Below, piece after piece: positions 31,673 to 64,000 of a stretch of DNA of 64,000 bases (its first letter is position 1; every line of letters starts with the position of its first letter). The position numbers and the translations under genes were made by a program. A model generated the notes under the pieces. The model was given only the letters and a program-made list of their open reading frames with translations. It did not search any database and had not been told where the DNA came from. This DNA is from Leucosporidium creatinivorum. Taxonomy: Eukaryota; Basidiomycota; Microbotryomycetes; Leucosporidiales; Leucosporidiaceae. The stretch spans positions 420,721-484,720 of the forward strand of contig BCKL01000022.1 of NCBI GenBank assembly GCA_001600635.1, written 5' to 3'.

Positions 31673-31713
31673 CAAAGTCGACACTCGAAGCTGACATACC
31701 TCTCAATCTATAG

Positions 31714-32102
31714 CTCTTGAGGTTCGCGGAATTGGATCCTCCATCGCCGTTGCCTTCCAGTGGGGAGGAAACCTCATCATCAGTTCGACTTTCCTTACCA
31801 TGCTCAACTCGCTCGGCGCCGCTGGGACCTACGGCCTCTTCGCAGGCTTCTGTTTCGTGGGTCTACTCTCTACCAGTGGGATAGATCCTACCCGAGAACT
31901 GACCGAGCTTCATCACTCGCAGTTGACCTTCGTCTTCATCTACTTTGCCTACCCCGAAAGCGCCGGCCTCACCCTCGAAGAGACTGGCACCCTCTTCATC
32001 GACGGCTTTGGAGTTCGAAAGGCAGATCAGATCCGCCACGCCAAAGCCAACAAGCGCGACCTGGAAGGCGCAGGGTCGGCGTCGATCGACGATAAGCAGT
32101 GA
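31714..32102 (+). CDS. MFS sugar/inositol transporter, C-terminal part (left copy)
   Basis: Two exons are visible (31714-31856, 31923-32102); everything upstream is in the gap. The frame starts LEVRGIGSSIAVAFQWGGNL, then a membrane helix (TFLTMLNSLGAAGTYGLFAG), a second helix (FCFLTFVFIYFAYPES), and AGLTLEETGTLFIDGFGVRK. The VRGIG loop, the PES.GLTLEE signature and the following DGFGVRKA match the sugar-porter branch that holds fungal myo-inositol transporters of the ITR/Fst type; quinate and hexose porters share the fold. The intron uses a GTGGGT donor. Its copy is at 63571-63959. Substrate is not certain, but it is likely the uptake gene of the cluster. Confidence 0.75.
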
Positions 32103-32627
32103 TACTCGGCGATGGCTTCTCGGGCTTTCCTCTTCCTCTGAACTCGGTGTATCAAGTCATCTCTGTCCTGTGGTAGTATCTATGAGCCAATGTTATTCTT
32201 ATCCGAACCGTGCACACTGCGAGGTAGAGGAGAGCATCGCCTCAGCCAGTTTCTTTCCCTTCGTTCGGGGCGCACAGATCTCGGCGGCCTGCAGCTCAAC
32301 GATCCCGAACATTTGCTCTTTCTCAGAAGCGCAAATTCATCTCATAATAGTACCGCGCTTGCGATCGTCGGACTGCTATACCGCTCTGCAGAACAGCTTC
32401 TTCAAGGCGGGGACGATCGCCGAAAGGTGCGCTGTGTCACTGAAGAGCTTCTCAATTCAAGGCGATTAGCGAGTAGTTACTGCTGTACATCTGCACACCA
32501 TCCGTACCAGAGCTCGAACCGAGGCCCCACCCGCTCCAACTCGCCAACCCGTGGGGAGGCGGCGAGCTTAAGATCGCTTCTTTGCTCTCTCTCCGACAAC
32601 TTGCTCGTCTCTCTCGTTTCGTGCACC
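32103..32627 (+). promoter_or_regulatory. 5' flank of the left Zn2Cys6 regulator
   Basis: This 525-bp spacer lies between the transporter stop and the regulator start. It is identical in both arms, so the two regulator copies share their promoter sequence. No ORF is supported. Confidence 0.5.
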
Positions 32628-35600
32628 ATGTCGGCCATCTACGAGCCATCTTCAAGCGGTATTGAGCCATGGCAATTCGACTCGGCAGCAGCAGCAGCAG
32701 CAGCTCCTTCAACGGCGACCGGCGGCGCTCCCGACCCTCCTCCCAGCGCCTCAACGTCNANTGNAGCNGAGGGAGATGGCGGCGACGACCGNGGCAGCAC
32801 CAAGCGTNCCAGACCACTATCGAANCTTGCCTGCGAACGGTGTCGGAAGCTCAAAGCGCGGTGTGAGCCCCACGAACCGGAGAATGGCAAGTGCGCTCGC
32901 TGCGCCAGGCTCAGCTTTGATTGTGTGTGGGGAGAATCGCAGAAGCGAGGGAGGAAGGCTAGTGTAGCACCGTATGTCTCCCACTGCTTTGATACAGCCG
33001 AATCACACTGAGCTCGAGAACGGCCCACAGACGACCAATACCATCACAAGCTCCCGAAGCGCCGCCCGTCAATGCCGCGCCTGTAGAGCAGTCTGGTGAG
33101 TCGGGCGTTGTAGAAGAGTATAGTGAGACTGCTGTACTAATCCGATTCACCGCAGAAGCTCCCATTGACCGTCTCGCTCTCCTTGCCTCGGCCGCCCCTC
33201 ATGCCGCCGTCCAGCAGGAGCCCGTCTTCGCCAGCAGCAACGCACCTTCAGCTCCTCCCATCGCTACATCGCTCCCTTTGCCTCCCCTCTACCCATCGCC
33301 CGGCAGCCTCACAGCTCCAATCCTCGCTCCAATCGCTTCCACCTCGCAGCAGCCCTACTCTCTCCCGCCGACGTCGGCGTTCTTCCCCCAAGCCGCTCAA
33401 CTTCCTCCACCACCACCATCAGGAATCTCTCCAAATGCCTCGAGCTCCTACTCCAACGGCCCAAGATCCTACGACGCTTCGGGCTCGCTGCGAGACGAGA
33501 CGAGCCCTCGGCCGGCCTTGCCCAGTCTGTCNATGATGGAACTGGCACAAGCCAAGGAGGAAGCGCTACAGAANCTCAGAGGNTCTACNANTCTTGTTCG
33601 TGCTCANGCGAAGCGANCAGCCTTCGACTCGCGACGAGAGCCGGATCCAATCGACATGCACGTCCTCACCNAGCTGGANGCNCTCCAGCTGTTCGAGCAG
33701 TAAGTCGAGCTGACATGCTCAAGTGATTGACCCCGCTNACTCTGCTCTCGCTTCACAGCTACCACACAAAGATGAACGCCTTCATCATCCTCCTCGACCC
33801 GCATCTGCACAAGGTCGACTACGTCCGTCAGACCTCGCCCGTGCTCTTCACCACCATCCTCGCAGTCTCGGCCAAGTTCGTCCGACCTCAGCTCTACCCC
33901 TCACTCCTCATGGCAGCCAAGCAGCTCGTTGGTCGAGGCATCATCGACGGTCAGGTCTCGGTCGGGCTCGTCCAGTCGCTGCTGCTTCAAGTCTACTGGA
34001 AGGAGCCGGAGGACTGCAGTGCTTGGCTGAGGGTCGGCGAGGCTATCCGCATGGGTGAGCCTTCTAACTCGTTCTCCCATCATCGATGGAGCCTGCTCGC
34101 TTCCACCCCTCGGCGATGACCCGCTTCGCTCCCCGTTCCCCTCTCTTCGTCTCGCGTCGCGGAGTCAACAACAGCGCTAACCCAGCTCCCCTCAACAGGC
34201 TACCAGCTACATCTTCATACCCGACGAACGACGCCCCTCCCTGATGAGGAGTTGGAAGCTCGCCAGATCCTCGACCGCGAGCGAACCTGGATCGACCTCT
34301 ACTGCTTCGACCAGACGTTCTTCCTACAAAGCGAAGCGGACGACGACGTGCACCAGACGTGCATGATCCCGCACCACAAGATTGACGTGCGAAGCTGGCT
34401 GCACGAGTCGAGGCGCTTCGGCGTGGAGGACGATCTCGAGCAAGGCGCCAACTTCGAGTACGTCCGCTTGCTCTCGTGCGCGGCGCGGACGAGCTGACTC
34501 GCTTTCTACTCCGAGCAGATGGATCAAGATGCTGCGACTCAGCAGGGACATCTCGAAAGCTCGACCTGCCCATGCTCGCTCCCTCGGCGATCACATCCAA
34601 GGCATGCTCGACTCCTCTTACCAGCAGTACCTCGACCCAAGCTGTGAGTGACATCCAATGTTCCTCTTTCGAGNGCAAAGACCGAGCTGACCTCTGCTCT
34701 TTTCCACAGCCGCCGACGCCTTCCAAGTCGGCTCGAGGCCTTGGATTCGAGTCAAGTAAGCTGCCTCCCCTTCTCCTCCACAATTCGGCCAAAAATCAAT
34801 AGCTCACTCTTTTCCGCCGCTACAGCTTCTGGCTCGCCGCAGCCTCCCTCGCTCTCACTCGAGCCATGCTCACGGCAGTCGGAGTAGACGGCGACCTCCT
34901 CGCCAAGTGGGTGGTCGCTTCGGGCGCTTTCGTGGATGCCTTCGAGACAATCGCCAAACACGGATACATTCAATACTGGCAGGATACTCTCGGCGTCACT
35001 CTGTACTCGATGGGAGAGTTTAGCGTCAAGGTTAGCTCGGCGTTACTTTTCGCTCGTAGCATGGGCCCCAGCTGACCCTTCGCTCGCCTTCCTCACTGCA
35101 GATCTTCTCCAAAGTCTACCCGGCGAATCAGAGGGGTATCGTGGGATGGATGGAGCGAAGTGGGTCCCCCTCTCTTGCCACCTGGCCTCCTCGGCTTCAC
35201 CCGTCTCTCGTCTACGCTTCTCCGCCTTCCACCTCGCATACGCTGACCTTAACTTTTTACCTGCAGTCTATCGCGCCTGCGAGTCCTCGACCGACGGCCA
35301 AGCGGAGTCGACAGCGGGCTTCATCTCTCGCTTCTTCCAGCTCTGCCTTCGCGCCGTGTGCACTCCTCCCACTGCACCAGCAAGCCCGACAGCCGCTGCT
35401 GCAGACGGCACTGATGCGGGATTCCCATTCGCTCAAGGCTCCCAGGTTCGTCGTCTGCTCATCGAGGTCGAGAAGGAAGCTGACTCTGCTCTCGCCTCTT
35501 CGCAGGCGATGCTGAACCAGTCGTTCGACCCAACACCTGCACCGATGATTGGCTTTGACGATGCTTCCTATTGGTGAGTAGCTTCGTCACGTCTTGCCGG

Positions 35601-35750
35601 ACTTCTTCTCGACGTCTCGCCCTTCCTCTCGACGAAACGACTGACCTCGTTCGCTTCGCCAGGGAGTCGCTCTTCCCAGGACTTTCGACAGACTGGAGTT
35701 GGCTAGATCTTTCGCTAGAAGAGAGCCTGCGCGCTGCTGCACCTTTGTAA
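32628..35750 (+). CDS. Zn2Cys6 fungal-type transcription factor (left copy)
   Basis: Twelve exons (32628-32971, 33031-33095, 33156-33699, 33759-34054, 34199-34457, 34519-34643, 34710-34755, 34826-35030, 35102-35159, 35267-35445, 35506-35573, 35663-35750) encode 758 aa. The zinc cluster is at about residues 67-95: CERCRKLKARC then CARCARLSFDC, with nine residues between. A basic linker (QKRGRKA) follows. The middle region has fungal-specific regulator features (LDPHLHKVDYVRQTSPVLFTT, LLLQVYWKEPEDCSAWLRVG, FWLAAASLALTRAMLTA). Such proteins are nuclear activators or repressors, often of neighbouring catabolic genes; this one sits between a transporter and a tandem-barrel enzyme. Several single N bases fall in exons 1 and 3, so a few residues are undetermined. 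The right copy is 59924-63045. Confidence 0.9.
32759..33726. other. Scattered ambiguous bases in the left arm
   Basis: Isolated N bases occur at about 32759-32824 and 33532-33738 (and again near 34676, 35879, 35902 and 36540). Most have a counterpart N at the mirrored position of the right arm (about 61935-62100, 62906-62914, 59133), which suggests that reads from the two arms were not separated. Confidence 0.85.
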
Positions 35751-35887
35751 TTGTGCTGCTTAATGACTGCTTCGCTACATCTCCCTTTCGACGAGCACCC
35801 GAGCGAGCGCCAGGCTTCGGCGAAGACTTAGCGTTACACGTCGTCCACTACTCTTCCATCATTCGTCAGCCCTCCCAGNCGACCTTC

Positions 35888-36348
35888 TCACTTCTGCCTC
35901 CNCCACTCGGCCCAGAATGAATCATCTTGCCCTCCCACCCGACTTCTACACCGCTCGGCGACCCCCGCCTCCGAACTCGGGCTCGGCGGGGACGCTGCAC
36001 AATACGCCGTGTTGTCGAGCTGCTCTAGGATGGTAGATAGGGATACCTGGTGACTGTTGAAGGAGTCGAGGGCGGAGAAGACGTTGGCGGTGAGAGCGTC
36101 GGGGGACATGTCGAGCAGGCTCAGGCTCAGCTGTTCGGCGCCGAGATGGGCGAGGAAGAACAAGTCGAGTAAGCATGGGGCGGGCAAGACGAGGGGATAC
36201 AGTGAATAAGCTTTAACGCACCATATCCAGCTTGGCTTCTGATGTTGTTGACTAGCTCGGAAAGTGCGTTAATGCTGGAAGCGTCCTCGAAGCAGTGGGA
36301 AGGAACCCTCACCATGGCGCAAGTGGATGCACTGGCAGGAGATGACAT
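35888..36348 (-). CDS. Small protein of unknown function (left copy)
   Basis: Three exons (36313-36348, 36222-36251, 35888-36130) encode 102 aa. The model was chosen because all three junctions are phase 0: MSSPASASTCAM, then STTSEAKLDM, then LSLSLLDMSPDALTANVF. The donors are GTGAGG and GTGCGT; the first acceptor is TAG. The core has helices (DALTANVFSALDSFNSHQ, LSTILEQLDNTAY) and the tail is Ser/Arg-rich. I do not recognise a family. It converges on the Zn2Cys6 gene (137 bp between stop codons) and lies downstream of the tandem-barrel gene on the same strand. One N falls in the last exon. Its copy in the right arm is 59326-59786. Confidence 0.5.
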
Positions 36349-36756
36349 GGTAGCGTCGAGCAAGGATGTTTGTAGAAATGTGCTAGCTGGTAGAGAGGAG
36401 AGACGAGAGCGGAAGAGCCGGAAGAGCAAGAGAGAGGGCAACTCGGCGGAGCCGGTCAAGGTGAGACTTGGAGAGCCAGAGCGTCCCCCGGCGGCAGGCG
36501 AGCCTCAAAACTCCGTGTCAGCTTACGTGGGGAATGATGNNATCGTCTCCACAGGTGGTCCGGGCCGCCCTGCGCCACGGCGTTCCCAGCGGAGCATGCT
36601 TCGCCTCAGCCGAGCTTGCCTCGCGAGCAGTCTCCTTCTCTTTGCGCTCACGGGACGAGTCTGAACTATAGCGCGGATGTCAATGCTAGTTCTGATTCAT
36701 GCAGTGAGACTTTAGATGACTCCCAATGTACAAAAGCCTGGGAGCGTCTCATCGCC
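36349..36756. other. Spacer between the small gene and the tandem-barrel gene (left arm)
   Basis: These 408 bp hold the 5' flank of the 102-aa gene and the 3' flank of the tandem-barrel gene, both minus-strand. Two N bases lie at about 36540-36541. I see no gene. Confidence 0.5.
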
Positions 36757-39489
36757 TCACCAGAAAGGCTCGATGTCTGCGAGCGCCGAAGAGGGTCAGA
36801 AGGTGCTCATGACGGTCAACAACGGACATGGCTCACCTCGAGCCTCGGCCAAGCAAGCCTGCACTCCGTTGAACGAACGCCTGGCGTGAGTCGGCACCAC
36901 CGTCGGGCTGTTCTCGTGGATCGAGTCGTTGAAGATCTCGAGGGTGAAGGCGCCCTTGTAGCCCTGCAAGACAAAAAAGGTGAGTACGAGACTCGAGAGC
37001 CTAGCGAATGAAAACGTACAGTAGCGAGAATAGCGGCGAGGCAGTCAGCGACTGGCATGTAGCCACCCAGCGCCTCCTCATTGGGGAAGAGACGGTGCGA
37101 AGTCGACCACTGGCGATGAGGAGGCTCGTGGTCGGGCGTCCACTTCTCTGTCGCCTTGGTGGGAGGTTTGAGCGACTTGGGGTCGACGAGCTTGGCGTCG
37201 GCGACTTGAACGACGAAGATCTTGTCGCCGGGGATGAGCTCCACGAGCTTGGCGAGGCGCTGCCTAACGACCGAGATGGAATCCTCGAGAGTATCGTGGA
37301 TGCGGCCGTGGCCAGCGAGGTTGTAGGGGTTGGCGAACTCGACGGCGAGGAAGTTGAAGGTGTCGAAGACGAAGCCGAGATTGGGTCGATCAGCGAGACG
37401 AATGGCCTCCCAGGTCTTGTCGAACGTGTTGATGTGCGAACCCCAGGAGAGGTGCTCGTATCCGACCTTGAGCATGGGTCCTCCGTCCGCTCGCGAGTAC
37501 TCGGCGGCCAGGTCGGCGAAGAGGGCCAAGTCGGCAGCGATGACGTTCATGTCGTCCGTGTGGCTGTCAAAGTCGTACGAGCGATTGGTGGTGATGTAGG
37601 TGACGGTCGTGCGAAGTGCGCGCATGTAAGGGAAGTAGTCCTTGACGCGCTGGACGGCAGCATCTCGGTCGGCCTGCTTGACGAGACCTTCGACGTCAAT
37701 CAAAGGTTGGAAGCAGATGATCTCCATGCCGAGAGAAGCAACGAGATCTCCGATCTTCTTTGCCGCGTGTAGGTGGATGGGGTTGGGCTGTTGGCGAGAG
37801 AAGACGAGTACGGAGAATGGGCGAGGCGACGAAGGGGTGGAACAGAAGCGAGAGAAGCAAGTCAGCTTGCTGTCTCGGGCGTCTCCCGAGGAAGAGATCG
37901 CGGTGGTGAGTCGAGCGAGTGAAGAGACGACGCACCTCCCACAAGTTGGCCTTGTTGGCGCTGGGCTGGAGCGAGAGGTAGTGGAGGAAGTCGTCCTCGT
38001 AGAGGTCGATCGCCTGATGACCGACGGCAGCACATGCGTAGAGCTTATCTGTGGTATTCACCGGGTCAGCAAACAGAGAAAGAGGAGCATAACGGGCCAA
38101 GACGAGCGACGACGAACCCTCAAGAGAGAAGTGCTCGTAGGACCCGATATTGACGGTGCAGGTGCCGAGCTTGTTCTGGCCACGAGGAGTAGGAGGGTAG
38201 ACTGTGGAGCCAAGGGAACGGTCAGCCTCGATACCGAGCGCAGAGAGGATCGGGATGAAACGAACAAGGCGCCAGCTCTAGCTCTTTGGCGAGCCGAATC
38301 CAAGATCCGACGGCGCGATTCGTACGCTCGGCCAAGAGACTCTTCCTAGGATCGAAAGCATCGTCTTCGAACACCTCCATGACCGTGATGCCGCGGAAGC
38401 CGGTCGCGTAGATGGCCTCGGAGACTTGGGTGACGGGGAAGTAGCCCTCGCCGGGGAACGGACGTCCGTGCATGCTCCAGGCGAAGAGGGGATCGAGGTG
38501 AGGCTCCGTGAACTTGGACTTGGGGATGGGAGGGTCGAAGAAGGTGCCGTCCGAGATTTGGTAGACGAAGATGTCGTCGGCCGAGATCTTGCGAAGGCGC
38601 TGAGGTCGACAGGCGAGGTCAGCGTTCGGTCTAGCTTTCGGCAGAGAGTACAGAGATGTTCTCACGTCGAGAGAAGCCTGAAGAGCGGCCTGGCCTCCTT
38701 CCCTCAGACCATCGACGGTCTCGGGGCTGTGAGAAAGAAGCGAGACGATGTGGAAGGTGTCGAGGCAGAGGCCGATGTTGGAGCGCTCGACGCGGTGGAT
38801 GATGTCGAGAGCGGCCTCCCACGTCTTGATGTGCGTACTCCAGCCGAGCGGCTCGTAGGCAATCTGTTCGGCGAGCGAGAGACGGGATCAGCTTCGCCGA
38901 AGAGCAGGGCATTGGCGACGGCAGTGAGCACGCACCTTGACGGGAGGGGATACAGAAAGTCCTATATCGGCGACCTCCCTCAGATCAGCGACGATGAGGT
39001 CCACATCTCCCGAGGCGGCAGGGTCGAACGATGCGGGGATTTGGATCTGCTCGATGCCGAGAATACCACACAGCTCGACCCAGAACTTGAACTCGTTGAT
39101 CCTCTCGTCATGTCGAGCGCGGTCTTGCAGCCCTTCGTAGTTCTCGAAAGCATCGAGGACGACGAGCACGAGTCCCAACTCGCGAGCGCGCTGGTTCGTT
39201 TGACGAGCAGCTTCTCGGATGGCGTCCTGTTGATTACTGTAGCCTTGTAGAGTCTTGGCGTAGCTCTGTGCTCGAACACGACATGAGAAGACGATGAGCG
39301 ATGGAACGAGAACGAGACGGCGGAAGGGGAGAAGGAGCGAACTTCGAGACACTCGAATGCCACCTCAATGGTCCAGAGTCCCGCTCTGGCGCATTCGTCG
39401 AGAATCTCGAGAATAAAGTGTCCACCGGCGGAGCGTCCCACCGAGCGGGTGCAAATGCCGAAGGGGACTGCTTGAGGGAGAGGGGGCAT
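36757..39489 (-). CDS. Tandem 3-dehydroshikimate-dehydratase-like double TIM barrel (left copy)
   Basis: Nine exons (39343-39489, 38936-39265, 38666-38863, 38266-38599, 38118-38201, 37936-38048, 37020-37787, 36837-36963, 36757-36776) join in phase to 706 aa, about twice a normal fungal dehydroshikimate dehydratase. Barrel 1 (about 10-340): FGICTRSVGR, AYEPLGWSTHIKTWEA, GLCLDTFHIV, VYQISDG and TVMEVFEDD. Barrel 2 (about 350-700): LGTCTVNIGSY, AIDLYEDDFLHYL, GYEHLSWGSHINTFD, GFVFDTFNFLA, VVQVADA and TLEIFND. In each, the Glu, Asp, Gln and Glu of these motifs fit the metal ligands of the xylose-isomerase-like fold. The junction LAP/FYPPTPRGQNKLG uses a GTTCGT donor and a CAG acceptor with a GCTGAC branch; the second barrel has no ATG of its own. 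Expected role is lyase or isomerase chemistry on a hydroaromatic or inositol-like ketone. Confidence 0.82.
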
Positions 39490-39922
39490 GGTTCGGCGGA
39501 AGGGTTTCGAGGTGTAGGATGGCGCGAGGGGGAAGAGGAGCAGTACAGCGATACACCTCGTGGATGTGAGGAAGGCAAGAGCAGCGCTACACGCTTCAGA
39601 GAGCGGCTCCCTTTCTCGACCGGACCCGGAGGTCGACCAAGCTCGGCCGGCTCTTTCGAGCTTGCTAGATGCTTGCAGAGCGAGTGCCTTGCCGCTAGAG
39701 TGGAACATATGACTTCGGAGCGGCTGACGTACCCCGCCAGCGTCGAGGGAGATGCTACCCGCTTCTCAAGTATGAACTCGGCGCCTCGAGCACTTCTATC
39801 GGCGAGCTTTCACCTTGCGCTTGCTGGGGCTCTCTATCATGGACGACCGAGGATCACAGCGACTGAACACATCTCTTCTCACACTTCTCCGCCAAACGTA
39901 TCTACTGACAAGACCCTCGTCT
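39490..39922 (-). promoter_or_regulatory. Promoter of the left tandem-barrel gene / 3' flank of the GEA gene
   Basis: This is the 433 bp between the tandem-barrel start codon and the GEA stop codon, both on the minus strand. Only the first about 200 bp resemble the mirrored promoter at 55985-56184, and they do so imperfectly. The two tandem-barrel copies therefore have different upstream sequences. Confidence 0.5.
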
Positions 39923-42900
39923 CTAAGGCTGCTCGAGCCCAACGCCGACAACCTCTCGTGGGCTCTGCTGCTGTTCTTGCTGCTCGGAAGCTGACCCCGA
40001 CACCGAAGTAGGAGCTGTTGCCGATGATGGTGGTGGCACTACTGCTGCTGTTGATGAAGTGGTGGCCGATGCGAGAGGAGGAGTGGCGCTCTCGAAGGGC
40101 ACGGGGACGAGGACTTTGGGGGCGGGGAAGAGGTCGCCTGTAGAGGAATGGTGGATTCGAATTAGCTCCGGCGAAACTGGCGGTATCTACTGGAGCTGGA
40201 TCTCACCCTTGAGCTCGGGAAGGAAGGGCTGGATGCGCTCGAAGGTGGCATCCCAGAGGGGAGCATGCTCGGGAGTCCAGCGAGGGTCATGCGGTGGTCG
40301 AAGGAATCCTGCTTCGTTCATGACGAGCAGTACGTTCTTGAGTGATTCGGGGACGGCCTCGAACTGCGAAGGGAGCCTCATCAGCCGAAAGCTCGGGCGA
40401 GCAAAGAGTGAGCGACCAACTCACCATCTGATCCCGTCGACCGCTGTGCATGAACCGATCTTGGTAGCCCAGGATCCTGAGCCACAGCGCGGTCATCGTC
40501 TCGCGTCCTTGTCGCTCCGAAAGCTGGGTGAGGTAGGAGAGGAAGATCTTGCAGAGCTGTAGGAATCGCAAGATACGAGTCAGTGGCGAGCGTCTTCACC
40601 AAGCGTAAGTGAGCACTTACCAGAGCCGATGCCCTCAGCCTCGTCTCTCCCATGCCCTCGGGATCCCTCCTGAAGACTTGAGGCTTGAGCAGCTCCTCCA
40701 GCATAGGGAAGAAGACCTTCTCGAAGATGGTGGTGAAGTCGACGTTGGGGTTGTCCAGGATCTCCCGAGCGACGAGGGTGCGCTGCAGCGACGAGATGGC
40801 GATTTGTCGAAGCTCGCGCGAGGGGTTGAGGCAGAGCTGCGAGTAGGCCGAGAGGAGGGGGATCCAGGAAGCTTCCCAGGCTGTGTAAAATGGAAGAAGG
40901 GATGAGCAATTGAAGAGACGTGTCTCAAGTAGATCGACTCACCTCGAGTAGCCGACAAGGTAGACTCGGCGATGAGCTGAGGAAGGGCGTCCTGCGTGCT
41001 CTTGAGGATGTCGACAATCTGGCGACCGCGCTGCATAGCAGGATCGTCACTGGAGTGACAAAGGGTCAGTCCAGTCGATCAGTTGCTCGAATTTGGACTC
41101 ACGCTGCGTTGGAAACGTTTGGCGGGCCGACCGAGACGTTGGCGAAAGCGACGAGGACGTGGAGGAAGGGTGCGTAGTTGTTAGGACCGAGCTTGGCCTT
41201 GTCGTCCTTCTTGCCTGCTGCGAGTTGGCGCATGAGCTCAAAGGAGATCTTGGCCGCTTCCTCTTGCTGGATGGTCGCCGAGAAGAGCGCGAAAATGAGG
41301 TTCCACTCGGTGGTCGACCTGGTAGCGTAGTGGAGGTCAGCAACCGCTTCAAAAAAAAAACAGAAGATTGGAAAGGACCTACTCCACGCGGTCGGCGTTC
41401 TCGAGGAAGAGCTTCGAGAGGCCCGCCATGAGCGGTTCGGCGACCGAGCTCAGCACAGGAGGAGCGAGCGACCTAAGGATGTCGAGAGCGAGGAAGGTCG
41501 AGTCGCGCAGCTCGTCTTCCTTGATGACGACCGTGATCAGACGGAGGAGGGAAGCGACGACGCGCTCGTTGAAGAGGCTGCTGAAGCACGAAGCCGAGGC
41601 CAGGAGGCGCGAGAGGAAGTCGAAGGCGATGGGCCTGGGAGTAGCGTGCGAGGAGTCAGCACGTACGCTCGAACAGTAGTCAGATCCCTCGCGCTCACCA
41701 GAGATCCAGGACCGAGTCTTGACTCCTGGCGACGACGCTGGTGAGGATCTCGAGGAGGAGCACGGCCGACGGGTCATACGGCAGCTGCACCCTCGCCGCC
41801 GAGATGCTGATCTGTGGCGAGTTGGGGACGGAGCCTGATCCCGATCCCGTCTTGGTGCGTAGCTTGTCGACGGTCAAACGCTGGCAGAGGTCGACGAGGA
41901 CTTGAACAGGGGCGATGAGGGCTTCTCCCTTGAGTTCGCTGTAGAGGGCGCTAGAGTCAGCGAAAGGCGGAAAAGGGTAACATGATTAAACCGCACAGGA
42001 TCTGGGAGTAGAGCAACTCGATCCTGCACGAGGCAATGCAGTCGACCGCGCTCAAGGTCGTCTCGACATCGTCGTCCGTGTAGTCATTGCCGGCGATCTC
42101 TCCTCCGCCGTAAGGGCTGAGAAGGTACGATGACAGCGTCGAGAGAAGTCCTCCGTCTCCACGTCGGTCCTCGCGAGGTGTTGGCGCCGACTTGGGCTTG
42201 AGGGGGATGACCGACTGGCCCGAGAGGAAGTCCTCCATGGCGAGAAGGGAGGGAGGGAGCAGCGAGTGGACGAAGAGGGTCTGATAGATCTCAAAGATGT
42301 GGCTCCATCCCTCTCGGATCGAAGCGCCGTTGTTGTTGGCGATGGTGAAGAGGACGACGGCCGCGAGCTGAGCCTTGACGTTCATGCCGAAGCGGACGGC
42401 CATAGGGCTGACGGTGACCTTCTGTCCCATCTCGACATCGACGACGGGGAAGTTGCCCAGCTCTTGCGAGTCGCGACTGTTCGATGAAGCGCTCGTCAAG
42501 CCCGTCACCCGACTGAGCGAGAGGATGAGGTAGTCGAAGACCTCGGGCATGCCGAAGCGAGCGGCGAGGGCGGCGCAGTCGTTGAAGCCTCCGATGGCGC
42601 GCTGGACCATGTAGTCATCTTGGAAGTTGGCGAAGGCGTAGGAGAAGGCCGAGACGATGGGCTTCCATGCGACGGCGAACATGCCTCGGTCGAACTCGTT
42701 CGACTGGACCGAGACGAAGGGACCTGTAGCGCGGAGGACAGTGTCAGCGTCGATCGACATGGAAGATGAAAGCGCAGATAAGCTGACCGCTTTGCCGTGT
42801 GCGCCTCAGTAGCTCCTTCCATCCGTACTCGAAACCGACCTGGTTCTGGTGCTCCTCGGGCAGGACGATCTCCCGCTTCCTAATCGAGTCGAAGATCGAT

Positions 42901-54004: not shown

Positions 54005-55912
54005 ATGCCGACGACCGACGTAGCAGCACCGGGATTGGATGTATGTCCACCTGTACCACGACCAGGCTTCACCTTCACCCAAGGTGTCCTCTGCGGCCAG
54101 CTCTCCTTGTTTGTCGTCTCGTCTCAGCTCCCGACGTCAGCTCTATGGCTCGCTGACCTGTATCATGTCACCAGTGTCATCATCTCGGTCCTGTTCCTCA
54201 AGTACTTCGTCTTTGAAGACCCTGCAGCAGATCGGCCAACTCCCAAATCCCGCGAATCGACGCGCAAGGTGAGCCAGCTCCTCTCGCCAGCTCCGTACGC
54301 TCGCTGATGGTCTTCACTCGAACAGCGCTCGAATCGACCACGCAGATCTTCTGTCTCGCCCGCCTCTCCTACCCCCGCCATCCTCTCGGCGCTCGATTAC
54401 GACCTTCCAACACACGCTCCGGAATCGCTCGACTGGCTCAACGTCCTGCTAGCACAAGCGCTTTCTGCCTATCGAGGGCTAGTAGCAGAATCAACAGCAG
54501 GGAATGGAGGAGGAGCGAAAGGGCTGATGGAGGAGATGCTGAATCGGAAAGCGCCGGCCGAGGAGGGCGACGATGGTGAAGCTGCTCCGGGGTTGGTGGG
54601 GATCGACAGGATTGAGGTGTTGGATGTGGTGGTGGGAGACAAGTACCCGATGTTGAGTAATGCGAGGGTACGGCCGAGTGGGGAGGATGGCGGAGTGGTG
54701 AGTTCGGCTCTTGATCTCGCTCGACCGGCGCTCGTTGACTTCTTACGCCTACAACAGCGAGTCGAGCTCGACGTCGACTTTACCGACCATGTCTCCCTTT
54801 CCATCTCGACCTGCCTCCTCGTCAACTTCCCGCGACCACGATTCGCCGTTCTCCCCATCTCCCTCGGCCTCACCCTCGAACGCTTCTCGGGCACCCTCAC
54901 ACTCGAACTCCCTTCACCTTCAGCCCTCTCGCCAGCTGCTCACTCGCACGCCACAGGCCATGCACACCACAACCCCTCCGTCCACCTCTCCCTCCATCCC
55001 GACTTTACTCTCGACCTCTCAACGACCTCACTCCTCGGCTCTCGCGCCAAGCTGCAGGACGTGCCCAAGGTCGAGCAATTGATCCTCGCTCGTATCCGAG
55101 GCTACATCCAAGATCGCGTAGTCTGGCCCGGCCGAGTGCAAGTCGCCCTCCCCGGAGTCGGCACTTCGCACCATCATCACGGCCGCCACTCTTCGCATGG
55201 GCACGACGCTTCTAGTAGCGGACATCAGGCGCTCCCATCGGACGAGTGGGAGTGGGTCCCCTCGCCTGCGTCCGAAGGCGGGAAGGGTGGAGACTCGGGA
55301 TCGACCTCCTCCCTCCTCTCCGACGATCGACTGTCGCCCGACGCTGACTCGACTACCAACGATGACGACGAACCCACTTCCGGAGACGAGACGCCCTCCA
55401 TCGACCTTGACGCAGACGGCGGACCCTCGGTCGTCCTCCATCCCAAAATCCGAGCCAAGGGCGATACCACTCCCCTTGAAGGCGGTCCTCACACCTCGGG
55501 TCCTCGTCTACGACGACCGTCGGCCTTACTAAAGCAGAGTACCATCCCCGGTCTCGGAAACCCCGCTCGTCCTCCATCACCGACCGAATCCCTTCCCGGC
55601 CACTTCGCTCCACCTCCGCCCTTCTCCTACTTCCCAACACCAAACGGTCCCTCCAAGCCCTCAGCACCACCACCATCTCGACCGAATGGAGGACGTTGGG
55701 TCCCTCGGAACTCGTCGCAGGGAGGTGAAGGCGGATTGTCGGCGGCGAGATTAGCAGCGGTCGCTGCTGCAGCGGCAGATGCTAGTCCCTCGGGAGGAGG
55801 AGGGCAGAGAGGTGGAGAGGGAATGAGGTATAGGATGAAGGGACCCGGGAGCGTGGGGATGGGAGTGGAGATTGGGAGCGTAGGAGGGAGTAGGAAGGGA
55901 GGACGGTATTGA
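54005..55912 (+). CDS. MMM1: ERMES subunit Mmm1 (SMP-domain lipid-transfer protein)
   Basis: Three exons (54005-54268, 54326-54697, 54758-55912) encode 596 aa. A short lumenal N-terminus is followed by a transmembrane helix at about 46-70 (LYHVTSVIISVLFLKYFVF). The SMP domain starts near residue 115 with SLDWLNVLLAQALSAYR and continues through VGDKYPMLSNARVRP, VSLSISTCLLVNFPRPRFAV, LPISLGLTLERFSGTL and LILARIRGYIQDRVVWPGRV. Mmm1 is the ER-anchored partner of Mdm12, Mdm34 and Mdm10 that transfers phospholipid between ER and mitochondria. The long tail after residue 330 is unusual: His-rich, then acidic/Ser-rich, then Pro- and Gly-rich. Intron 2 (54698-54757) is exactly 60 nt, in frame and stop-free. 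Confidence 0.92.
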
Positions 55913-56184
55913 GGTGTTAGGGTGGTAATCGACGGGCTCTCGAACGGGAACAGCGATCCAGAGTCGAAGACATATCTTCACTATAGAGGCACTCGCTCTG
56001 CAGGCTCAGGAAAGTCGCGAGAGAAACCGGCCGACGCTTGACCTCCGTGTCCGGTCGAGGGAGGCAGCTAGCCTCTGAAGCGGTGTAGAGCTGCTCTTGC
56101 CTTCCTACCGTTCACAACTTGTACCGGAGTACAGCTTCCGAACCTCTCGCGCTACCCTACACTTTGAAACCCTTCCGCCGAACC
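55913..56184 (+). promoter_or_regulatory. Promoter of the right tandem-barrel gene
   Basis: The 272 bp between the MMM1 stop and the tandem-barrel start codon. From about 55985 it resembles the left promoter imperfectly (shared blocks TGACCTCCG.GTCCGGTCGAG and GCTGCTCTTGCCTTCCT, and an almost identical 20 bp just before the ATG). Confidence 0.5.
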
Positions 56185-58917
56185 ATGCCCCCTCTTCCCC
56201 AAGCCGTCCCCTTCGGCATTTGCACCCGCTCTGTAGGACGCTCCGCCGGTGCTCACTTTATCCTCGAGATTCTCGACGAATGCGCCAAAGCGGGACTCTG
56301 GACCATTGAGGTGGCATTCGAGTGTCTAGAGGTTCGCTCCTTCTCTCCTTCCGCCGTCTCGTTCTCGTTCCATCGCTCATCGTCTTCTCATGTCGTGTTC
56401 GAGCACAGAGCTACGCCAAGACTCTACAAGGCTACAGTAATCAACAGGACGCCATCCGAGAAGCTGCTCGTCAAACGAACCAGCGCGCTCGCGAGTTGGG
56501 ACTCGTGCTCGTCGTCCTCGATGCTTTCGAGAACTACGAAGGGCTGCAAGACCGCGCTCGACATGACGAGAGGATCAACGAGTTCAAGTTCTGGGTCGAG
56601 CTGTGTGGTATTCTCGGCATCGAGCAGATCCAAATCCCCGCATCGTTCGACCCTGCCGCCTCGGGAGATGTGGACCTCATCGTCGCTGATCTGAGGGAGG
56701 TCGCCGATATAGGACTTTCTGTATCCCCTCCCGTCAAGGTGCGTGCTCACTGCCGTCGCCAATGCCCTGCTCTTCGGCGAAGCTGATCCCGTCTCTCGCT
56801 CGCCGAACAGATTGCCTACGAGCCGCTCGGCTGGAGTACGCACATCAAGACGTGGGAGGCCGCTCTCGACATCATCCACCGCGTCGAGCGCTCCAACATC
56901 GGCCTCTGCCTCGACACCTTCCACATCGTCTCGCTTCTTTCTCACAGCCCCGAGACCGTCGATGGTCTGAGGGAAGGAGGCCAGGCCGCTCTTCAGGCTT
57001 CTCTCGACGTGAGAACATCTCTGTACTCTCTGCCGAAAGCTAGACCGAACGCTGACCTCGCCTGTCGACCTCAGCGCCTTCGCAAGATCTCGGCCGACGA
57101 CATCTTCGTCTACCAAATCTCGGACGGCACCTTCTTCGACCCTCCCATCCCCAAGTCCAAGTTCACGGAGCCTCACCTCGATCCCCTCTTCGCCTGGAGC
57201 ATGCACGGACGTCCGTTCCCCGGCGAGGGCTACTTCCCCGTCACCCAAGTCTCCGAGGCCATCTACGCGACCGGCTTCCGCGGCATCACGGTCATGGAGG
57301 TGTTCGAAGACGATGCTTTCGATCCTAGGAAGAGTCTCTTGGCCGAGCGTACGAATCGCGCCGTCGGATCTTGGATTCGGCTCGCCAAAGAGCTAGAGCT
57401 GGCGCCTTGTTCGTTTCATCCCGATCCTCTCTGCGCTCGGTATCGAGGCTGACCGTTCCCTTGGCTCCACAGTCTACCCTCCTACTCCTCGTGGCCAGAA
57501 CAAGCTCGGCACCTGCACCGTCAATATCGGGTCCTACGAGCACTTCTCTCTTGAGGGTTCGTCGTCGCTCGTCTTGGCCCGTTATGCTCCTCTTTCTCTG
57601 TTTGCTGACCCGGTGAATACCACAGATAAGCTCTACGCATGTGCTGCCGTCGGTCATCAGGCGATCGACCTCTACGAGGACGACTTCCTCCACTACCTCT
57701 CGCTCCAGCCCAGCGCCAACAAGGCCAACTTGTGGGAGGTGCGTCGTCTCTTCACTCGCTCGACTCACCACCGCGATCTCTTCCTCGGGAGACGCCCGAG
57801 ACAGCAAGCTGACTTGCTTCTCTCGCTTCTGTTCCACCCCTTCGTCGCCTCGCCCATTCTCCGTACTCGCCTTCTCTCGCCAACAGCCCAACCCCATCCA
57901 CCTACACGCGGCAAAGAAGATCGGAGATCTCGTTGCTTCTCTCGGCATGGAGATCATCTGCTTCCAACCTTTGATTGACGTCGAAGGTCTCGTCAAGCAG
58001 GCCGACCGAGATGCTGCCGTCCAGCGCGTCAAGGACTACTTCCCTTACATGCGCGCACTTCGCACGACCGTCACCTACATCACCACCAATCGCTCGTACG
58101 ACTTTGACAGCCACACGGACGACATGAACGTCATCGCTGCCGACTTGGCCCTCTTCGCCGACCTGGCCGCCGAGTACTCGCGAGCGGACGGAGGACCCAT
58201 GCTCAAGGTCGGATACGAGCACCTCTCCTGGGGTTCGCACATCAACACGTTCGACAAGACCTGGGAGGCCATTCGTCTCGCTGATCGACCCAATCTCGGC
58301 TTCGTCTTCGACACCTTCAACTTCCTCGCCGTCGAGTTCGCCAACCCCTACAACCTCGCTGGCCACGGCCGCATCCACGATACTCTCGAGGATTCCATCT
58401 CGGTCGTTAGGCAGCGCCTCGCCAAGCTCGTGGAGCTCATCCCCGGCGACAAGATCTTCGTCGTTCAAGTCGCCGACGCCAAGCTCGTCGACCCCAAGTC
58501 GCTCAAACCTCCCACCAAGGCGACAGAGAAGTGGACGCCCGACCACGAGCCTCCTCATCGCCAGTGGTCGACTTCGCACCGTCTCTTCCCCAATGAGGAG
58601 GCGCTGGGTGGCTACATGCCAGTCGCTGACTGCCTCGCCGCTATTCTCGCTACTGTACGTTTTCATTCGCTAGGCTCTCGAGTCTCGTACTCACCTTTTT
58701 TGTCTTGCAGGGCTACAAGGGCGCCTTCACCCTCGAGATCTTCAACGACTCGATCCACGAGAACAGCCCGACGGTGGTGCCGACTCACGCCAGGCGTTCG
58801 TTCAACGGAGTGCAGGCTTGCTTGGCCGAGGCTCGAGGTGAGCCATGTCCGTTGTTGACCGTCATGAGCACCTTCTGACCCTCTTCGGCGCTCGCAGACA
58901 TCGAGCCTTTCTGGTGA
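56185..58917 (+). CDS. Tandem 3-dehydroshikimate-dehydratase-like double TIM barrel (right copy)
   Basis: Nine exons (56185-56331, 56409-56738, 56811-57008, 57075-57408, 57473-57556, 57626-57738, 57887-58654, 58711-58837, 58898-58917) encode 706 aa, the same structure as 36757-39489. Exon 1 has 11 differences in 147 nt from the left copy, mostly silent, with Gly to Ala (SAGAHF) and Arg to Lys (ECAKAG) changes. The rest is almost identical; one further difference lies inside intron 6. Intron 3 (57009-57074) is 66 nt, in frame and stop-free. Both barrels keep the Glu/Asp/Gln/Glu ligand pattern. Its promoter differs clearly from that of the left copy, so the two could be expressed differently. 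Confidence 0.82.
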
Positions 58918-59325
58918 GGCGATGAGACGCTCCCAGGCTTTTGTACATTGGGAGTCATCTAAAGTCTCACTGCATGAATCAGAACTAGCATTGACATCCG
59001 CGCTATAGTTCAGACTCGTCCCGTGAGCGCAAAGAGAAGGAGACTGCTCGCGAGGCAAGCTCGGCTGAGGCGAAGCATGCTCCGCTGGGAACGCCGTGGC
59101 GCAGGGCGGCCCGGACCACCTGTGGAGACGATNNCATCATTCCCCACGTAAGCTGACACGGAGTTTTGAGGCTCGCCTGCCGCCGGGGGACGCTCTGGCT
59201 CTCCAAGTCTCACCTTGACCGGCTCCGCCGAGTTGCCCTCTCTCTTGCTCTTCCGGCTCTTCCGCTCTCGTCTCTCCTCTCTACCAGCTAGCACATTTCT
59301 ACAAACATCCTTGCTCGACGCTACC
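58918..59325. other. Spacer between tandem-barrel gene and small gene (right arm)
   Basis: This mirrors 36349-36756, with N bases at about 59133-59134. I see no gene. Confidence 0.5.
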
Positions 59326-59786
59326 ATGTCATCTCCTGCCAGTGCATCCACTTGCGCCATGGTGAGGGTTCCTTCCCACTGCTTCGAGGACGCTTCCAGC
59401 ATTAACGCACCCTCCGAGCTAGTCAACAACATCAGAAGCCAAGCTGGATATGGTGCGTTAAAGCTTATTCACTGTATCCCCTCGTCTTGCCCGCCCCATG
59501 CTTACTCGACTTGTTCTTCCTCGCCCATCTCGGCGCCGAACAGCTGAGCCTGAGCCTGCTCGACATGTCCCCCGACGCTCTCACCGCCAACGTCTTCTCC
59601 GCCCTCGACTCCTTCAACAGTCACCAGGTATCCCTATCTACCATCCTAGAGCAGCTCGACAACACGGCGTATTGTGCAGCGTCCCCGCCGAGCCCGAGTT
59701 CGGAGGCGGGGGTCGCCGAGCGGTGTAGAAGTCGGGTGGGAGGGCAAGATGATTCATTCTGGGCCGAGTGGNGGAGGCAGAAGTGA
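59326..59786 (+). CDS. Small protein of unknown function (right copy)
   Basis: Three phase-0 exons (59326-59361, 59423-59452, 59544-59786) give 102 aa, the same as the left copy at 35888-36348. A Ser-to-Gly type difference (AGC region near 59412) falls in intron 1, not in the protein. Family unknown. Confidence 0.5.
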
Positions 59787-59923
59787 GAAGGTCGNCTGGG
59801 AGGGCTGACGAATGATGGAAGAGTAGTGGACGACGTGTAACGCTAAGTCTTCGCCGAAGCCTGGCGCTCGCTCGGGTGCTCGTCGAAAGGGAGATGTAGC
59901 GAAGCAGTCATTAAGCAGCACAA

Positions 59924-62900
59924 TTACAAAGGTGCAGCAGCGCGCAGGCTCTCTTCTAGCGAAAGATCTAGCCAACTCCAGTCTGTCGAAAGTCCTGGGA
60001 AGAGCGACTCCCTGGCGAAGCGAACGAGGTCAGTCGTTTCGTCGAGAGGAAGGGCGAGACGTCGAGAAGAAGTCCGGCAAGACGTGACGAAGCTACTCAC
60101 CAATAGGAAGCATCGTCAAAGCCAATCATCGGTGCAGGTGTTGGGTCGAACGACTGGTTCAGCATCGCCTGCGAAGAGGCGAGAGCAGAGTCAGCTTCCT
60201 TCTCGACCTCGATGAGCAGACGACGAACCTGGGAGCCTTGAGCGAATGGGAATCCCGCATCAGTGCCGTCTGCAGCAGCGGCTGTCGGGCTTGCTGGTGC
60301 AGTGGGAGGAGTGCACACGGCGCGAAGGCAGAGCTGGAAGAAGCGAGAGATGAAGCCCGCTGTCGACTCCGCTTGGCCGTCGGTCGAGGACTCGCAGGCG
60401 CGATAGACTGCAGGTAAAAAGTTAAGGTCAGCGTATGCGAGGTGNAAGGCGGAGAAGCGTAGACGAGAGACGGGTGAAGCCGAGGAGGCCAGGTGGCAAG
60501 AGAGGGGGACCCACTTCGCTCCATCCATCCCACGATACCCCTCTGATTCGCCGGGTAGACTTTGGAGAAGATCTGCAGTGAGGAAGGCGAGCGAAGGGTC
60601 AGCTGGGGCCCATGCTACGAGCGAAAAGTAACGCCGAGCTAACCTTGACGCTAAACTCTCCCATCGAGTACAGAGTGACGCCGAGAGTATCCTGCCAGTA
60701 TTGAATGTATCCGTGTTTGGCGATTGTCTCGAAGGCATCCACGAAAGCGCCCGAAGCGACCACCCACTTGGCGAGGAGGTCGCCGTCTACTCCGACTGCC
60801 GTGAGCATGGCTCGAGTGAGAGCGAGGGAGGCTGCGGCGAGCCAGAAGCTGTAGCGGCGGAAAAGAGTGAGCTATTGATTTTTGGCCGAATTGTGGAGGA
60901 GAAGGGGAGGCAGCTTACTTGACTCGAATCCAAGGCCTCGAGCCGACTTGGAAGGCGTCGGCGGCTGTGGAAAAGAGCAGAGGTCAGCTCGGTCTTTGCC
61001 CTCGAAAGAGGAACATTGGATGTCACTCACAGCTTGGGTCGAGGTACTGCTGGTAAGAGGAGTCGAGCATGCCTTGGATGTGATCGCCGAGGGAGCGAGC
61101 ATGGGCAGGTCGAGCTTTCGAGATGTCCCTGCTGAGTCGCAGCATCTTGATCCATCTGCTCGGAGTAGAAAGCGAGTCAGCTCGTCCGCGCCGCGCACGA
61201 GAGCAAGCGGACGTACTCGAAGTTGGCGCCTTGCTCGAGATCGTCTTCCACGCCGAAGCGCCTCGACTCGTTCAGCCAGCTTCGCACGTCAATCTTGTGG
61301 TGCGGGATCATGCACGTCTGGTGCACGTCGTCATCCGCTCCGCTTTGTAGGAAGAACGTCTGGTCGAAGCAGTACAGGTCGATCCAGGTTCGCTCGCGGT
61401 CGAGGATCTGACGAGCTTCCAACTCCTCATCAGTGAGGGGCGTCGTTCGTCGGGTATGAAGATGTAGCTGGTAGCCTCTTGAGGGGAGCTGGGTTAGCGC
61501 TGTTGTTGACTCCGCGAGACGAACAGGGGGGAACGGGGAGCGAAGCGGGTCAAGCCATCGCCGAGGGGTGGAAGCACCGGCCTCCAGCGATGGTGCGCGA
61601 ACGAACAAGAAGACTCACCCATTCGGATAGCCTCGCCGACCCTCAGCCAAGCACTGCAGTCTTCCGGCTCCTTCCAGTAGACTTGGAGAAGCAGCGACTG
61701 GACGAGCCCGACCGAGACCTGACCGTCGATGATGCCTCGACCAACGAGCTGCTTGGCTGCCATGAGGAGTGAGGGGTAGANCTGAGGTCGGACGAACTTG
61801 GCCGAGACTGCGAGGATGGTGGTGAAGAGCACGGGCGAGGTCTGACGGACGTAGTCGACCTTGTGCAGATGCGGGTCGAGGAGGATGATGAAGGCGTTCA
61901 TCTTTGTGTGGTAGCTGTGAAGCGAGAGCAGAGTNAGCGGGGTCAATCACTTGAGCATGTCAGCTCGACTTACTGCTCGAACAGCTGGAGNGCNTCCAGC
62001 TNGGTGAGGACGTGCATGTCGATTGGATCCGGCTCTCGTCGCGAGTCGAAGGCTGNTCGCTTCGCNTGAGCACGAACAAGANTNGTAGANCCTCTGAGNT
62101 TCTGTAGCGCTTCCTCCTTGGCTTGTGCCAGTTCCATCATCGACAGACTGGGCAACGCCGGCCGAGGGCTCGTCTCGTCTCGCAGCGAGCCCGAAGCGTC
62201 GTAGGATCTTGGGCCGTTGGAGTAGGAGCTCGAGGCATTTGGAGAGATTCCTGATGGTGGTGGTGGAGGAAGTTGAGCGGCTTGGGGGAAGAACGCCGAC
62301 GTCGGCGGGAGAGAGTAGGGCTGCTGCGAGGTGGAAGCGATTGGAGCGAGGATTGGAGCTGTGAGGCTGCCGGGCGATGGGTAGAGGGGAGGCAAAGGGA
62401 GCGATGTAGCGATGGGAGGAGCTGAAGGTGCGTTGCTGCTGGCGAAGACGGGCTCCTGCTGGACGGCGGCATGAGGGGCGGCCGAGGCAAGGAGAGCGAG
62501 ACGGTCAATGGGAGCTTCTGCGGTGAATCGGATTAGTACAGCAGTCTCACTATACTCTTCTACAACGCCCGACTCACCAGACTGCTCTACAGGCGCGGCA
62601 TTGACGGGCGGCGCTTCGGGAGCTTGTGATGGTATTGGTCGTCTGTGGGCCGTTCTCGAGCTCAGTGTGATTCGGCTGTATCGAAGCAGTGGGAGACATA
62701 CGGTGCTACACTAGCCTTCCTCCCTCGCTTCTGCGATTCTCCCCACACACAATCAAAGCTGAGCCTGGCGCAGCGAGCGCACTTGCCATTCTCCGGTTCG
62801 TGGGGCTCACACCGCGCTTTGAGCTTCCGACACCGTTCGCAGGCAAGCTTCGATAGTGGTCTGGCACGCTTGGTGCTGCCCCGGTCGTCGCCGCCATCTC

Positions 62901-63045
62901 CCTCNGCTNCANTNGACGTTGAGGCGCTGGGAGGAGGNTCGGGAGCGCCGCCGGTCGCCGTTGAAGGAGCTGCTGCTGCTGCTGCTGCCGAGTCGAATTG
63001 CCATGGCTCAATACCGCTTGAAGATGGCTCGTAGATGGCCGACAT
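59924..63045 (-). CDS. Zn2Cys6 fungal-type transcription factor (right copy)
   Basis: Twelve exons mirror the left copy (62702-63045, 62578-62642, 61974-62517, 61619-61914, 61217-61475, 61031-61155, 60919-60964, 60644-60848, 60515-60572, 60229-60407, 60101-60168, 59924-60011). Zinc cluster and middle region are identical where bases are called. Intron 4 (61476-61618) differs from the left copy at many positions with several indels and ends in GAG rather than CAG. Exon 5 carries Pro to Thr (PLTDEE), Glu to Gly (QSGADDD) and His to Asn (SWLNESRR) changes. All are conservative enough to leave a readable protein. Whether the GAG acceptor is used efficiently is unknown. Confidence 0.88.
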
Positions 63046-63570
63046 GGTGCACGAAACGAGAGAGACGAGCAAGTTGTCGGAGAGAGAGCAAAGAAGCGAT
63101 CTTAAGCTCGCCGCCTCCCCACGGGTTGGCGAGTTGGAGCGGGTGGGGCCTCGGTTCGAGCTCTGGTACGGATGGTGTGCAGATGTACAGCAGTAACTAC
63201 TCGCTAATCGCCTTGAATTGAGAAGCTCTTCAGTGACACAGCGCACCTTTCGGCGATCGTCCCCGCCTTGAAGAAGCTGTTCTGCAGAGCGGTATAGCAG
63301 TCCGACGATCGCAAGCGCGGTACTATTATGAGATGAATTTGCGCTTCTGAGAAAGAGCAAATGTTCGGGATCGTTGAGCTGCAGGCCGCCGAGATCTGTG
63401 CGCCCCGAACGAAGGGAAAGAAACTGGCTGAGGCGATGCTCTCCTCTACCTCGCAGTGTGCACGGTTCGGATAAGAATAACATTGGCTCATAGATACTAC
63501 CACAGGACAGAGATGACTTGATACACCGAGTTCAGAGGAAGAGGAAAGCCCGAGAAGCCATCGCCGAGTA
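63046..63570 (-). promoter_or_regulatory. 5' flank of the right Zn2Cys6 regulator
   Basis: This is the mirror of 32103-32627 with no visible differences. No ORF is supported. Confidence 0.5.
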
Positions 63571-63959
63571 TCACTGCTTATCGTCGATCGACGCCGACCC
63601 TGCGCCTTCCAGGTCGCGCTTGTTGGCTTTGGCGTGGCGGATCTGATCTGCCTTTCGAACTCCAAAGCCGTCGATGAAGAGGGTGCCAGTCTCTTCGAGG
63701 GTGAGGCCGGCGCTTTCGGGGTAGGCAAAGTAGATGAAGACGAAGGTCAACTGCGAGTGATGAAGCTCGGTCAGTTCTCGGGTAGGATCTATCCCACTGG
63801 TAGAGAGTAGACCCACGAAACAGAAGCCTGCGAAGAGGCCGTAGGTCCCAGCGGCGCCGAGCGAGTTGAGCATGGTAAGGAAAGTCGAACTGATGATGAG
63901 GTTTCCTCCCCACTGGAAGGCAACGGCGATGGAGGATCCAATTCCGCGAACCTCAAGAG
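63571..63959 (-). CDS. MFS sugar/inositol transporter, C-terminal part (right copy)
   Basis: Exons 63817-63959 and 63571-63750 mirror the left copy and encode the same 128 visible residues ending in GAGSASIDDKQ. The gene continues beyond the window through an intron that starts at 63960. The PES.GLTLEE sugar-porter signature and GFGVRKA are intact. Confidence 0.75.
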
Positions 63960-64000
63960 CTATAGATTGAGAGGTATGTCAGCTTCGAGTGTCGACTTTG

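Follow-up and report, generated by a model that had tools for sequence, protein, structure and literature searches.

How does a metabolic gene cluster come to stand twice on one contig, as two inverted arms around a block of other genes, and can such a structure in an assembly be real? The question is raised by the last 64 kb of contig C22 (BCKL01000022.1, positions 420721-484720 of exactly 484,720 bases) of a Leucosporidium-like basidiomycete yeast, here called the window, which was analysed together with its assembly of 27.7 Mb in 63 contigs. A self-BLAST of the window gave a single dominant inverted match, 31673-39717 against 55965-64000, with 8,054 columns, 98.56% identity, 89 mismatches (Ns scored as mismatches) and 12 gap openings, which is far beyond chance. 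This confirms the description in the initial annotation of a duplicated cluster arranged as an inverted pair around other genes. By far the most probable explanation is an old inverted duplication of a six-gene unit, which has been patchily homogenised by gene conversion and whose spacer may occasionally be flipped.

The arms are longer than the inverted match itself. The left arm part directly follows a run of 915 N (30758-31672), the right arm part stops at the final base of the contig, and these two outer limits, 31673 and 64000, are the same homologous base. Beyond the N run, on its left side, the sequence of window 28625-30757 is found again at C42:146342-148478, 95.7% identical with 90 substitutions over 2.1 kb, and the last base of C42 (148478) is the homologue of window 30757. 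The similarity reaches outwards as far as 28625, where a dehydrogenase gene has its stop codon, and the flanks beyond this point differ between the window and C42. Because C42 and C22 both end at the homologous borders of the N run, we read it as an assembly gap, and the missing piece should contain the end of an EthD gene and the 5' part of a transporter gene. The positions 31673 and 64000 are ends of the assembly and not biological ends, because the N run and the contig end lie there. The simplest reading is that there are two arms of about 11.1 kb, and that the right arm continues in reverse onto C42, since both copies are cut at the same bases. The initial annotation had placed 8-kb arms with four genes at 31673-39690 and 55985-64000; the pair and the four genes (transporter, regulator, small protein and enzyme) are indeed there, but on the inner side the match reaches 39717 and 55965, and the complete arm, with its outer part to the left of the N run or, for the right arm, probably on C42, holds six genes. 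Genome searches with three arm stretches (31673-34000, 34000-37000 and 28000-30757) found two substantial copies of each and no third; the second search gave in addition one 127-bp match, 76%, on C7.

From the outside in, the arm carries genes for a short-chain dehydrogenase, an EthD protein, a transporter, a Zn2Cys6 regulator, a small protein and a tandem TIM-barrel enzyme, with both strands used, and it spans from the dehydrogenase stop codon to the promoter of the enzyme (Table 1). The frames of the regulator, the enzyme and the dehydrogenase are intact in both copies, while the EthD gene and the transporter are cut in both. The transporter, reported earlier for both arms, is present in each, but only with its 3' end (Sugar_tr profile positions 378-452).

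The inverted arms are not uniformly alike. Near-identical tracts alternate with clearly diverged tracts, and the 248 difference columns (26 of them with N) are unevenly spread along the arm. There are no differences at all in 31673-32735, which includes the intergenic DNA between transporter and regulator, and 34430-39327 has just 3 substitutions and 6 N columns, a difference of about 0.2%, but the 200 bp at 34000-34199 in the middle of the arm contain 16 substitutions and 11 indel columns. The introns give the same picture: in the dehydrogenase 57 of 544 intron positions differ, with single introns ranging from 1/66 to 30/87 (34%), whereas the enzyme has 2 differing intron positions out of 552 (Fisher p = 5e-16). 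In the regulator one intron has 21 of 144 positions different and all the others together 4 of 702. Seen along the whole unit, the dehydrogenase is mostly diverged, EthD and the transporter end are near-identical, the regulator is mixed, and the enzyme is identical except for its first exon and intron.

The differences in the coding regions follow the codons. Third positions account for 18 of the 23 substitutions in regulator and enzyme, 15 of the 21 in the dehydrogenase, and 12 of the 19 N sites in the regulator, combined 45/63 (p = 7e-10 against one third, with the sites treated as independent and the N sites as real variants). Of the codon changes in the regulator 9 are synonymous and 3 are not; the corresponding counts are 8 and 2 for the enzyme, and 17 and 4 for the dehydrogenase. 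Derived residues are found in both arms, P431T in the right copy of the regulator relative to 4 homologues, and in the enzyme G23A in the right copy and K35R in the left relative to 7 homologues. The fully readable genes (regulator, enzyme and dehydrogenase) show purifying selection. The third-position bias together with the patchiness would be as expected for old, selected paralogues that are homogenised by gene conversion. Selection on the proteins does not explain the identical tracts, because these include the enzyme introns and intergenic DNA.

The locus has probably developed in the following way. An old duplication would have left two inverted copies of the six-gene metabolic unit, each arm about 11 kb long, on the two sides of a 16.2-kb stretch with other genes. 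Its age is suggested by the introns that are not homogenised, where the divergence averages about 10% and reaches 34% in one intron. Gene conversion, that is non-allelic homologous recombination, would then have overwritten much of the unit in patches, and repeatedly so, because identical and diverged tracts alternate inside single genes. As a result most of the coding core would have become nearly identical, and the enzyme promoters and the dehydrogenase end would have diverged. Occasional crossovers between the arms may in addition flip the spacer. The earlier proposal that the arms could convert each other is thus well supported by the sequence comparison, within one genome, by near-identical introns and intergenic DNA beside strongly diverged tracts. 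An alternative without conversion is that the core was duplicated recently and that the diverged edges represent an older, separate paralogy. The long core 34430-39327 with its few differences would agree with this, but the alternating tracts would demand several independent events, and we consider it unlikely.

Some points weigh against an old duplication homogenised by conversion. Both arms are broken by the N run and the contig ends, so the connection between the right arm and C42 is indirect. Some of the interior identity may come from the assembler having used one consensus for both arms, which it did at times, as the Ns mirrored between them show, then marking the differences as N. The longest difference-free interval in the inner arm, 1,524 bp, speaks for conversion, as it exceeds the maximum of 1,339 in 20,000 uniform placements, but this control ignores the lower variability of coding sites. 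Finally, a much longer inverted pair on C13, described below, weakens the trust in the assembly generally, as it can be suspected of making such structures.

The last of these points touches the possibility of an assembly fold-back, in which short inverted repeats flanking the spacer would have led the assembler to fold back and place one real copy twice. The fold-back would account for the shared homologous base at the start of the left arm and the end of the right, most of the Ns are mirrored (in 18 of the 26 N columns both arms have an N), and the pair on C13 is a near-perfect example of what a fold-back could look like. However, a folded copy should be identical away from the loop, and these arms are not: the diverged patch at 34000-34199 sits in the middle of the arm, the outer part on C42 lies in a separate flank with its 90 substitutions, and the differences follow codon structure. 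A fold-back is thereby very improbable, and largely refuted by the existence of two separately flanked, diverged copies. It seems very unlikely from the sequence that the inverted pair is an assembly artefact, and the concern about this in the initial annotation can largely be regarded as settled in favour of a real duplication.

It is hard to believe that the arms merely represent the alternative haplotypes of a single locus, in a strain that is dikaryotic or diploid. A mosaic of identical and diverged tracts can also arise between alleles, and isolated Ns occur in 5 of 18 other genome blocks examined (56 runs, with 3 of the 18 blocks entirely N). Alleles would vary throughout the genome, yet all 42 isolated N runs in 84 kb around the locus are inside the arms, with none in the other 47 kb of the window or the adjacent 20 kb, and the two arms are attached to the opposite ends of a single N-free spacer. 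Mirrored Ns are what one expects where an assembler was unable to decide which of two near-identical copies a variant belongs to. The start of C8 carries 35 isolated Ns; the first 95 bases of this contig are the last 95 of C18, and they recur in inverted orientation on C18 itself, at a distance of 36 kb upstream and adjoining a long N run. This looks like another unresolved inverted repeat and fits with isolated Ns as marks of near-identical copies. The 95-base overlap would point to a graph assembler with K=96.

Table 1. Positions of the arms, their genes and related features (window coordinates unless a contig is given)
Feature	Position	Strand	Remarks
Left arm, full extent	28625..39717 (28625-30757, 915-N run, 31673-39717)	+	copies at C42:146342-148478 and 55965-64000
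Right arm, part in window	55965..64000	-	cut by contig end; probable continuation reversed onto C42
Spacer, 16.2 kb	39718..55964	.	N-free; no second copy within window
N run, 915 N	30758..31672	.	borders homologous to ends of C42 and C22
Short-chain dehydrogenase, 9 exons, 277 aa	28625..30002	-	PF13561 2.6e-55; arm homology ends at its stop
EthD-domain gene	30276..30757	+	PF07110 4.1e-17; cut by N run
Sugar-type MFS transporter, 3' end, left copy	31714..32102	+	PF00083 2.2e-13; start approximate
Zn2Cys6 regulator, left copy, 12 exons, 758 aa	32628..35750	+	frame intact, some codons with N
Zn2Cys6 regulator, right copy	59924..63045	-	frame intact, some codons with N
Small protein, left copy	35888..36348	-	approximate span; 102 aa (initial annotation) or 130 aa joined by hand, end uncertain
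Small protein, right copy	59326..59786	+	approximate span; encoded in both arms
Tandem TIM-barrel enzyme, left copy, 8 exons, 713 aa	36796..39489	-	PF01261 4.7e-50, two stretches; frame intact
Tandem TIM-barrel enzyme, right copy	56185..58878	+	frame intact
Diverged patch within regulator gene	33984..34428	+	intron 21/144 different, and flanking exons
Homogenised tract	34430..39327	+	about 0.2% different
Block TCGACCGGACNCGG, left enzyme promoter	39616..39629	+	conserved between diverged promoters; sequence comparison
Block TCGACCGGACNCGG, right enzyme promoter	56045..56058	-	sequence comparison
Sec7-domain (GEA-type) protein, exons	43057..43728	-	Sec7 domain on hand-joined peptide
LSM-domain protein, exons	46619..46894	+	one piece above Pfam cut-off, one below
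Zn2Cys6-like cysteine pattern	50071..50160	-	no Pfam match
MMM1, main exon	54527..55912	+	Pfam; stop codon 272 bp from right enzyme start codon
C8/C18 apparent unresolved repeat	C8:1-3000; C18:563880-568908; C18:604917-605011	inverted	sequence match

When homologous arms that lie in inverted orientation cross over, the block that they enclose is inverted. Of the known cases the nearest is the flip/flop (FF) region of Saccharomyces chromosome XIV, where, according to Salzberg et al. (2022, PMC9731477), a 24-kb block of 15 genes between homogenised 4.2-kb repeats inverts recurrently, in an orientation that short-read assemblies cannot resolve. By analogy with that region the proposal that recombination between the arms could flip the spacer seems sound. 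The two loci have in common gene-bearing inverted repeats on either side of a block with other genes, and the homogenisation of the repeats, there within strains and species and here within one assembly, to which a shared assembler consensus may contribute. Compared with the Saccharomyces region, the present arms are longer (about 11 kb), consist of a six-gene metabolic unit, retain strongly diverged tracts, and belong to a basidiomycete. In this assembly each arm is interrupted, so that either outer piece may belong to either spacer end, and the spacer may have either orientation. A mammalian X-linked inversion, cited in PMC9731477, follows the same scheme, with flanking inverted repeats homogenised by gene conversion and crossovers that invert the block again, although in a different kingdom and with unrelated arm content.

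In Ogataea (Hansenula) polymorpha, inverted repeats surround a block of similar size, 19 kb, which inverts in mating-type switching (PMC5720833 and PMC4238957). There the inversion is induced and moves MAT genes, and no MAT gene was identified at the present locus. The layout at this locus is that of an invertible segment, and a flip that has been selected because it changes the expression of cluster or spacer genes could be imagined after the same model, the more so as a cysteine pattern in the spacer may mark a second Zn2Cys6 regulator and the diverged enzyme promoters share a conserved block. Such a switch is nevertheless extremely unlikely, as the spacer genes that could be identified are housekeeping genes, the cysteine pattern lacks Pfam support, the STE3 pheromone receptor is found only on C25 (homeodomain genes were not searched), and the comparable Saccharomyces inversion is without known phenotype (PMC9731477). 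A mating-type locus was rejected on the same absence of MAT-type genes among those identified, with STE3 only on C25 and homeodomain genes not searched, and a centromere of the Candida tropicalis kind, with inverted repeats around a core, was set aside without a centromere test, since the spacer holds genes.

Duplicated metabolic gene clusters, in which regulator, transporter and enzymes are duplicated together, are known from other fungi. The present pair is unlike those in being a nearby inverted pair on one chromosome around housekeeping genes, with patches of conversion. The mechanism, homogenised inverted repeats, is already known and it is the layout that is striking; judging from titles and the beginnings of abstracts, the papers found on Leucosporidium genomes and inverted repeats apparently contain no account of this locus. 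If an old duplication homogenised by conversion is correct, inverted gene-bearing repeats are kept alike by conversion also in a phylum other than that of baker's yeast, with a whole metabolic cluster as the repeat. It would then be possible to test directly how often the spacer flips, whether selection favours conversion for equal enzyme copies, and whether the two promoters divide the work. The case would also be a warning that short-read assemblies hide such loci, as both copies broke at the same bases. A further-reaching version, that the genome is unusually prone both to making and to keeping long inverted duplications and that conversion keeps one metabolic programme under two diverged promoters while blocks flip in populations, is rather doubtful, and a benefit from raised dosage of a catabolic pathway, as proposed in the initial annotation, is at present a hypothesis.

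The first exon of the enzyme and the DNA upstream of it have not been homogenised, and the two upstream regions can be aligned only in blocks. One of these is the block TCGACCGGACNCGG, whose core CCGGACNCGG occurs in the window only at the two promoter places, and it is a candidate site for the regulator of the cluster. In the Pfam comparison the regulator matched PF00172 above the cut-off and Fungal_trans slightly below it, the enzyme gave two AP_endonuc_2 TIM-barrel stretches, and the small protein had no match. The first barrel of the enzyme matches IolI (8.7e-9), and the second barrel alone matches the solved chain 5hmq in two stretches (2.2e-24); this chain is deposited as a 4-hydroxyphenylpyruvate dioxygenase, and we take it to be of the QuiC type. 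The NCBIfam model NF042435 (3-dehydroshikimate dehydratase), scanned on the Leucosporidium creatinivorum homologue of the enzyme and not on the window protein, gave 173.6 bits, far below its cut-off of 1200. A genome search with PF00083, aimed at the absent 5' part of the transporter, gave at least 14 matches (9 of 189 candidates scored), none of which was observed to run into a contig end, with the ends of C16, C23 and C28 not judged.

The protein most closely related to the cluster enzyme is from L. creatinivorum and is 93% identical over 702 aligned positions. The pairing of enzyme and regulator looks conserved, because their locus tags are at most 7 apart in 4 of 5 relatives with tags of one strain (R. 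ruineniae, R. poonsookiae, R. toruloides NBRC10512 and R. araucariae, but not R. microsporus), and because the L. creatinivorum entries of both are on 700,482-base contigs. The homologue search gave one enzyme entry in each of ten named Basidiomycota species, which suggests a single copy but does not prove it, because the database merges sequences at 90% identity. For the regulator there was one entry in L. creatinivorum, and additional, more distant entries in several species, for instance two each in R. ruineniae and R. lusitaniae. Among the 120 of 144 MMM1 matches listed, the tags of the cluster and of the spacer gene MMM1 are far apart (one strain each) in R. poonsookiae, R. araucariae and R. 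microsporus, and no L. creatinivorum MMM1 was seen. The two are on contigs of differing length in R. kratochvilovae and R. toruloides, where the entries may stem from different assemblies, and in Meira a cluster protein and MMM1 are both on one very long contig. The homologues from the distant basidiomycete Meira miltonrushii, at 72% for the enzyme and at 65% over 70% of the query for the regulator, are closer than those of some Microbotryomycetes, and a horizontal transfer of the cluster is possible. The tandem-barrel enzyme of Pseudohyphozyma bogoriensis is listed with an extra PF04199 domain and 997 aa, which could be a gene fusion or a merger in the annotation.

The spacer genes were mostly as first described. 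MMM1 was recognised by Pfam, and Sec7 (GEA-type) and LSM domains were found; a separate exon of the Sec7 gene matched Sec7-like_HUS slightly under the cut-off. For the proposed second regulator there is a cysteine pattern with no Pfam match, and the one candidate stretch tried for the F-box gave no Pfam match either. An Rfam search of the window at gathering thresholds gave no match.

Other inverted repeats were observed in the assembly. The inverted pair on C13 (1-57050 and 59123-116172) has arms of 57 kb, one of which ends at the contig start, around a loop of 2,072 bp that by eye resembles a phosphomannose-isomerase gene. In the 26.9 kb of these arms that were compared (16.9 kb adjoining the loop plus the 10 kb farthest from it) there were three differing columns, all within 125 bp of the loop, which is the opposite of the pattern at the present locus. 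The pair could be a recent palindrome or an assembler fold-back artefact, and 112 bp of its arm recur exactly, close to the end of C11 (C11:833447-833558). Shorter inverted pairs are found at the start of C6 (1-1137 and 4155-5291, perfect over 1,137 bp and 3 kb apart), on C22 outside the window (412306-413062 and 415007-415763, 757 bp, 99.5%), and twice within it (5496-6353 and 15653-16511, 861 bp, 93.8%; 17392-17726 and 23689-24018, 336 bp, 83%). One direct pair near the locus is 315 bp and 91% identical. Counting self-matches of at least 300 bp within blocks, about 260 kb of readable sequence contained six inverted and one direct, in a sample that is biased, as the C22 block came with the window and the one from C13 had been chosen for an inverted pair of transporter matches.

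It was also possible to observe a 95% direct copy of C12:197-785 at C25:409775-410351. The STE3 pheromone receptor on C25 (435951-436551) is near a match of C25:440106-440178 to C12:1-73, and this area is possibly a mating-type region. Five of the 16 contig starts that were fetched (C2, C5, C10, C11 and C14) open with long N runs, from 1.4 to at least 10 kb, and C4 and C15 start with telomere-like CCCTAA repeats.

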